Positions 17,141 through 17,844 of a stretch of 29,268 nt of DNA are shown here, one piece after another (the first letter of the stretch is position 1; each line of letters begins with the position of its first letter). Both the position numbers and the translations under genes were made by a program. The notes beneath the pieces are model-generated. The model searched no databases, was not told the DNA's origin, and saw only the letters and a program-made list of their open reading frames with translations. Source of the stretch: a virus. The stretch lies in IMG/VR virus record IMGVR_UViG_3300025093_001715, positions 1 through 29,268 of that record. The stretch is one strand, 5' to 3'.

Positions 17141-17494
17141 CTACCGCCCTGCCCTGCGGCCCCAGCCCAAGGCGTCGCCGGCGTGATCGATGAAGGCGTG
17201 GAGTAACATGGCCTCGTCTGACGGTGCGAAACCGATCAGCTCGCGCTGCGGATAGTCGATCTCGGGGCCGTCCGGGGCGACCTGGTCGCGTTCGCCATAT
17301 TGGTGGACCCGGGCGAAGCGGGACGCGCGCGAGGTGAACTCGACCCAGGCGGCCTCACTGTCCGCGCCAGCCTTGAGCCAGCGGCTGGAGCGCAGGCCCC
17401 GGAACATGGGCGCGGAACGCTGGCGCACCTTGCCCCGCACCCCTCGGGCGCCTGAGGCCTCTATGGAGGTTTCGGCCTGCCCCTCGGGCGCCAT
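17141..17494 (-). CDS. gpS-like tail completion protein, C-terminal part (separate frame)
   Basis: A 116-residue open frame holding the C-terminal half of the P2 gpS/virion morphogenesis family: MFRGLRSSRWLKAGADSEAA, then EFTSRASRFARVHQYGERDQ and RELIGFAPSDEAMLLHAFID. In P2 these sections follow directly on the N-terminal half within one protein. Here they lie in the -1 frame relative to the upstream half, and the two frames overlap by at least 34 nt. The ATG at 17494 has no good ribosome site, so if made separately it would depend on coupling. gpS is needed for tail completion, so either a frameshifted fusion of about 234 residues, two subunits, or a disabled gene is possible. Confidence 0.75.
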   Translation of the reverse strand: MAPEGQAETSIEASGARGVRGKVRQRSAPMFRGLRSSRWLKAGADSEAAWVEFTSRASRFARVHQYGERDQVAPDGPEIDYPQRELIGFAPSDEAMLLHAFIDHAGDALGWGRRAGR

Positions 17495-17844
17495 CGGATC
17501 ACCCGGGACTTCTTGAAGGTGCGCAGGCCGTCGGCCTCACGGTCGAAGCCGACCATCATCTGGCCCTGCTGGCGCCAGCTGCGCATATCGACCAGACGCG
17601 GCGGGCCGGACCCGCCAGATGGATAGAGGAATCGGACGGGCCGGGTCGCGGGCTTGGCGGTGCGTCGCGGCTTGCGCTTGGGCCAGCTGGATCCATCGGG
17701 CGCGCGCTGGGCCGCCATGCGGCGCTGCTGAACGCGACGAATGTCGCCGGACATCCGCCGAAGCAGGCGGGTGCGCGCCGGCGCCTCAAGCGCGGCGAGG
17801 CAGGCGGCGGCGATCTCGTGCAGCTGGGCCAGGTCCTCGGCCAT
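17461..17844 (-). CDS. gpS-like tail completion protein, N-terminal part with inserted segment
   Basis: A 127-residue frame. Residues 1-60 match the gpS N-terminus (TRLLRRMSGDIRRVQQRRMA, then APDGSSWPKRKPRR). Residues 68-118 are an extra segment absent from P2 gpS (VRFLYPSGGSGPPRLV, SWRQQGQMMVGFDREADGLR, TFKKSRVIRW), with the look of a small beta domain. I have a tentative impression of WYL/SH3-like spacing, without proof. It stops at 17461 after RGRPKPP, while the natural continuation (APEGQAET) is in the -1 frame. The pattern equals loss of one base, or a recoding site, though no classical slippery heptamer is visible. The start overlaps the R stop (TGATG). Confidence 0.75.
   Translation of the reverse strand: MAEDLAQLHEIAAACLAALEAPARTRLLRRMSGDIRRVQQRRMAAQRAPDGSSWPKRKPRRTAKPATRPVRFLYPSGGSGPPRLVDMRSWRQQGQMMVGFDREADGLRTFKKSRVIRWRPRGRPKPP

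Follow-up and report, generated by a model that had tools for sequence, protein, structure and literature searches.

The tail completion protein gpS of phage P2 and its counterpart gpO of phage 186 belong to the family PF05069 (Phage_tail_S; Neck1) and to PHROG 26, and their gene follows gpR. Phages of the P2 type have genomes with single-stranded cohesive ends. According to the available text of the Virfam study, P2 gpS mutants make tails which do not attach to heads, and the Neck1 proteins span sizes from 56 to 231 residues (PMC4362835). The available part of a study on T5 terms the tail completion protein mysterious (PMC11784142).

In other phages, proteins that PHROGs and the literature also call Neck1 have been linked to the end of the packaged DNA. 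In the excerpts at hand, the tail completion protein gp51 of 80alpha is described as a monomer inside the neck which caps the DNA end and contacts it with N55, Y78, F81 and R87. Particles of lambda that lack gpZ are believed to hold their DNA in the wrong place (PMC11099176, available text). The reported model of lambda gpZ has at its apex an additional beta domain. However, gp51 and gpZ belong to other PHROG and Pfam families than gpS, and no significant alignment of gpS with either of them was obtained; the best local anchor paired ARVHQYG of gpS with SGFLEFG of gp51, at an hhalign probability of 0.5%.

The gpS locus

The virus record IMGVR_UViG_3300025093_001715 was analysed over a stretch of 29,268 bases, called the window below. 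It carries, mostly on the minus strand, a module of P2 type with genes for tape measure, sheath, gp25, baseplate J and capsid, as well as gpR and, after it, gpS. The tail terminator gene gpR (PF06891; 17844..18371, minus strand) lies just upstream of gpS and its stop overlaps the gpS start, which is the gene order expected for a PF05069 tail completion protein.

A single continuous frame for gpS, present in all 15 close relatives, is absent in the window. As the preliminary description had stated, the gene lies in two overlapping frames on the minus strand, the second of them in the -1 frame. ORF1 (17844-17461, minus strand; 127 aa) comprises the N-terminal helices and an entire inserted segment and ends in eight out-of-frame residues. 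ORF2 (17494-17141, minus strand; 117 aa) comprises a linker and the C-terminal core. The two overlap by 34 nt (17461..17494), and upstream the frame of ORF2 meets no stop until 17539. Both halves had been thought to look intact, and this was borne out by Pfam: PF05069 matched ORF1 over profile positions 5-60 (E 8e-8, 32.7 bits) and ORF2 over positions 44-145 (E 1.8e-14, 54.3 bits), in both cases above the cut-off of 24.3 bits. The gene also falls in PHROG 26, like its P2 and 186 counterparts. The inserted segment, gpS residues 70-119 (17488..17637, minus strand), corresponds to a five-stranded, WYL-like barrel according to predicted models and WYL searches.

Several observations concern the surroundings of the gene. 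PHROG 36427 (367 positions) matches gpR with its first part and gpS with its second (17461-18371), a pattern suggesting that the two are fused in some phages. An extra ORF after gpS (16404-17042, minus strand) belongs to PHROG 7805 of unknown function and matched nothing in Pfam or PADLOC. Over 191 residues its protein is 100% identical to that of the nearest relative (L081). The counterpart frame in that relative extends further upstream, over a stretch that may or may not be coding, because the window is 1 nt short near 17076. Between gpS and baseplate J, an ORF for 226 aa (15554-16234, minus strand) matched nothing in Pfam, PHROGs or PADLOC, and this stretch was matched by only two of the records compared (L003 and L004, 74-88%). 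Defence genes were considered for these two extra ORFs and dropped for want of a PADLOC match. At the other end of the window, positions 1-1665 (plus strand) hold a gene for an AbgT-family transporter. This is probably a host gene, and the record would therefore be a prophage with host flank. Beyond the portal gene lie genes for an HNH endonuclease (27553-28242, plus strand; 98% identical in L075) and a DNA methyltransferase (28438-29268, plus strand).

The split of gpS

The overlap was compared with that in relatives, as the preliminary description had proposed. A scan with ORF1 yielded 17 loci. For 15 of them (L023-L037) the alignment covers almost the whole of ORF1 at 62-99%; for the other two (L038 and L039) it covers the first 60 residues only. 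In all 15 close relatives gpS is encoded in a single frame, 228 or 235 residues long, and in each of them the joint, at about 17491 in the window, is 4 nt longer. A wider scan took the best 80 of 415 loci, ranked by likeness to insert-bearing queries, so that the frequency of the insert cannot be read from it. These loci gave 61 distinct gpS proteins, every one in a single frame with the insert, and one of them cut by the start of its contig. Likewise, a PF05069 search of 20 records found no stop inside the match in any of them.

A split common to a lineage was also considered and gained no clear support. Nothing in viral_contigs, a collection which may omit near copies of the genome under study, matched the joint exactly, and a degenerate pattern of the joint had three matches in genome_contigs, which is about chance level by our own estimate; the L042 genome, one of the three, has no gpS match. 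General decay of the prophage was not seen either. When the window was checked for frame-broken genes against seven relatives (ten loci), gpS was, on our reading of the rows, the only gene with counterparts in two adjacent coding-strand frames. The other shifted pairs were antisense, in non-gene frames or intergenic, with the exception of the 5' edge of ORF 16404-17042.

The split of gpS is supported as the effect of a private indel that shifts the frame where the barrel ends. Since the split is private, the joint is 4 nt shorter and an in-phase slippery heptamer (X_XXY_YYZ) was not found in ORF1, it represents a frameshift, real or from assembly, rather than recoding. The one-base deletion proposed earlier is right in kind and wrong in size, the net difference being 4 nt. 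The proposal of a recoding event did not hold up. A programmed -1 shift of the ribosome at the joint would indeed restore a reading that looks plausible and falls short of the relatives by one residue. Yet besides the missing heptamer the arrangement is not conserved, the relatives being in one frame, and we regard this mechanism as extremely improbable.

The pattern of substitutions bears on the kind of break. Compared with nine relatives, the first 116 codons of ORF1 contain no private codons, whereas codons 4-117 of ORF2 contain four synonymous and two replacing ones. Mismatches to the nearest relative (L024 and L081, one record) number 4 in ORF1, 38 in 17499-17141 and 5 in 17140-16502; the contrast between the first two has a Fisher p of about 1e-8 (denominators 348 and 342). 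Because private codons and mismatches concentrate after the joint, ORF2 resembles a patch that came from a different lineage and has its edge at the joint. Along gpR-gpS (17141-18371) the nearest relative changes between 150-nt bins, and the relatives are mosaic too; the prophage group therefore recombines within genes. Recombination with a small length error, plain mutation and an assembly chimera of strains all fit these data.

The last of these would mean that the real gene is intact and that the split arose in assembly or sequencing, for example by joining two co-occurring strains at the gpS linker. The shift in mismatch rate at the joint, which drops again past 17141, would be expected from such a chimera, and the base missing near 17076 relative to L081 and the absence of an identical joint from viral_contigs point the same way. 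On the other hand, mosaic patterns are frequent among the relatives themselves, the indel lies outside any homopolymer run of four or more, and no second real gene looks frame-broken in the comparison with the seven relatives. An artefact is a real possibility, if somewhat short of an even chance.

The two frames could also encode two polypeptides, ORF1 providing the helices and the barrel and ORF2 the C-terminal core from its own ATG. The break lies at the boundary of the barrel, beside a linker predicted to be disordered (residues 124-144 in the model of L083). The core residues are kept in ORF2, its ATG is missing in all 15 relatives, and one of the two private replacements, H183Q, leads to a residue common in other gpS proteins. 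Against this, the split occurs in no relative examined, no clear ribosome site was seen in the letters ahead of the ATG, and the private changes are too few to indicate selection. We consider two separate subunits improbable.

Most likely, gpS is broken in this record, or in the assembled sequence only. If the break is real, the prophage should make no virions, because tails of P2 gpS mutants remain unattached. On its own, such a split is ordinary.

Distribution of the insert

The insert had been described as not being part of P2 gpS, and it is indeed present here and missing from P2-type gpS proteins such as 186 gpO, which has 149 aa in one frame. It is likewise missing from gpS of Dobby, Menos, Alfacinha1 and ST13-OXA48phi12.1. 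However, it is not private to this phage; this possibility was ruled out by its presence in many phages, including each of the 61 distinct proteins that the best 80 of the 415 loci encode. The gpS proteins of E. coli phage P88 (211 aa), Klebsiella phage 3LV2017 (213 aa) and Enterobacter phage phiT5282H (212 aa) combine the core and the insert as in the window, but in a single frame. The entries listed label them as tail protein or as virion morphogenesis protein and do not mention WYL. The gpS of a faecal phage scaffold contains the insert as well. Among 385 alphaproteobacterial genomes sampled, the gpS profile matched two, and neither match contains the insert.

On the tree of the core the insert requires two changes, and the test for one origin gave an AU p of 0.35. 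An alignment of 22 inserts has eight invariant columns, among them G-x-D and R-x-F. All 22 are basic, with a pI of 9.8-11.8; 12 cellular WYL domains are mostly basic too (5.1-11.0).

Fold of the insert and its likeness to WYL domains

The full-protein model for the nearest relatives (L083; pLDDT 76.5, pTM 0.56) places five strands at residues 70-119, and the 57 insert residues of the window modelled alone also gave five strands, with a pLDDT of 92. The insert is thus predicted to fold independently into an Sm-like five-stranded barrel.

Sequence searches point to the WYL family. With three insert segments as queries, WYL (PF13280) was the only Pfam match (E 0.037, 0.036 and 1.4e-4); the scores were 14.5 bits for the window, 14.5 for L023 and 22.2 for L036 with a cut-off of 21.8. 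Within a set of 37 full gpS proteins, five of which lack the insert, seven matched WYL at E<=1 (best 0.0015); no match above the Pfam cut-off was among those seen. Other families, PF05069 apart, matched at most three members each. When a profile of the insert was compared with all PDB sequences, the three matches with E<=10 were all WYL regulators: 7p5x_AY (0.02), 9fnd_X (0.02) and 6sj9_A (1.6). The entries 9fnd and 6sj9 are PafBC by their titles, and 7p5x_AY is taken for PafB from its residue numbering. In hhalign the insert reached 21% with 12 genome WYL domains (E 0.001, 26 columns) versus 0.1% with Hfq.

The structure searches gave a similar, though not uniform, picture. In Foldseek, ranks 1-6 for the insert were PafBC and BrxR (E 0.11-0.29), with integrase and myosin from rank 7 on, and ranks 1-10 for the whole protein against the PDB were again PafBC and BrxR (best E 2e-3). 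None of the PDB searches, by sequence or by Foldseek, reached usual significance, and no Foldseek E was <= 0.001. Among viral models, Burkholderia phage phiX216 supplied the closest match to whole gpS with its tail completion protein (E 7.8e-9); third came a phage protein that bears the name WYL domain-containing (E 0.01). VIA-align placed CapW first for the whole protein (Z 5.5), followed by an Lsm-type chain (5.2). For the insert alone a biotin ligase domain led (6.5), and WYL and Sm proteins followed together from 5.9 down. These Z values are all middling.

The insert shares with the WYL domains (PF13280) of PafBC, BrxR and CapW the strand order and the pattern of G-x-D and R-x-F, and one of its segments exceeds the Pfam cut-off. 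Unlike these, it is shorter, has neither HTH nor WCX and resides in a virion protein. In alignment to PafBC the W-Y-L triad on strand 3 is absent; the window has M-M-V or no W column at this place. Because of the middling Z values and the missing triad we call the insert WYL-like and not a WYL domain. In the open-licence literature searched, no paper was found that links a WYL domain to tail completion or to a neck protein; two phage reviews mention WYL domains.

Alternatively, the insert could be a generic Sm/SH3-like barrel which only shapes or stabilises the neck and is neither a relative of WYL nor DNA-binding. This would agree with VIA-align, where Sm proteins and the biotin ligase domain stand level with or above WYL, with the loss of the triad and with the existence of P2-type phages that lack the insert. 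Yet WYL is favoured by the sequence searches (Pfam, the PDB profile, hhalign over Hfq) and by the top Foldseek rows for insert and whole protein alike, and we find a generic barrel somewhat doubtful.

Taken as a whole, our account has good, though not full, confidence: gpS in this phage group is one protein of about 235 residues, in which a basic, WYL-like Sm barrel some 50 residues long separates the N-terminal helices of the PF05069 core from its C-terminal part; in this record, or in its assembled sequence only, the gene is most likely broken by a private indel; and the insert would face and bind the DNA end. Computation supports the private split, the sharing of the insert, its predicted independent fold and its likeness to WYL, whereas its place and its binding at the DNA end are inferred.

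A possible role at the DNA end

The WYL domains of PafBC bind single-stranded DNA, and in the available text R211/R214, R181, R204/R208 and Y196 of PafB are named as residues that matter (PMC11804915). PafB R208 aligns with the Arg of the insert that is invariant in all 22 sequences. At R211 and R214 the window has Lys and Arg, and much of the gammaproteobacterial set has Tyr and Asp. Y196 aligns with a Met.

From the order of secondary structure elements we infer that the insert, between the N-terminal helices and the hairpin, would lie near the DNA-contacting loop of 80alpha gp51. Among the fold-search matches listed the 80alpha protein did not occur, which excludes nothing. The insert would then be on the side of gpS facing the end of the packaged DNA and would bind that end, perhaps the single-stranded cohesive end of the genome. 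Such a barrel could hold the DNA end because PafBC binds single-stranded DNA, gp51 is located at the DNA end and P2-type phages have cohesive ends. The WYL-like module in the neck protein of many P2-type phages may grip the single-stranded cohesive end, so that the fold of a bacterial single-stranded DNA sensor would serve as a part of the virion; in this general form we hold the idea to be unlikely.

Several points speak against a role at the DNA end. P2 and 186 manage without the insert, and of the PafB residues for single-stranded DNA the Tyr is replaced by Met and R214 by Asp in the gammaproteobacterial clade. Moreover, in the available text of the T5 study the tail completion protein of T5 is located at the tail tip, solved myophage necks show no tail completion protein, and P2 gpS is listed as a sheath terminator (PMC11784142).

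If the beta domain at the apex of lambda gpZ is related to the insert, this may be the form that the tail completion protein takes in cos phages. The insert bears on two questions about tail completion proteins, namely how they meet the end of the DNA and why they vary so much in size. With a basic module in E. coli phage P88 that is predicted to fold separately and resembles domains binding single-stranded DNA, one specific role would become directly testable.
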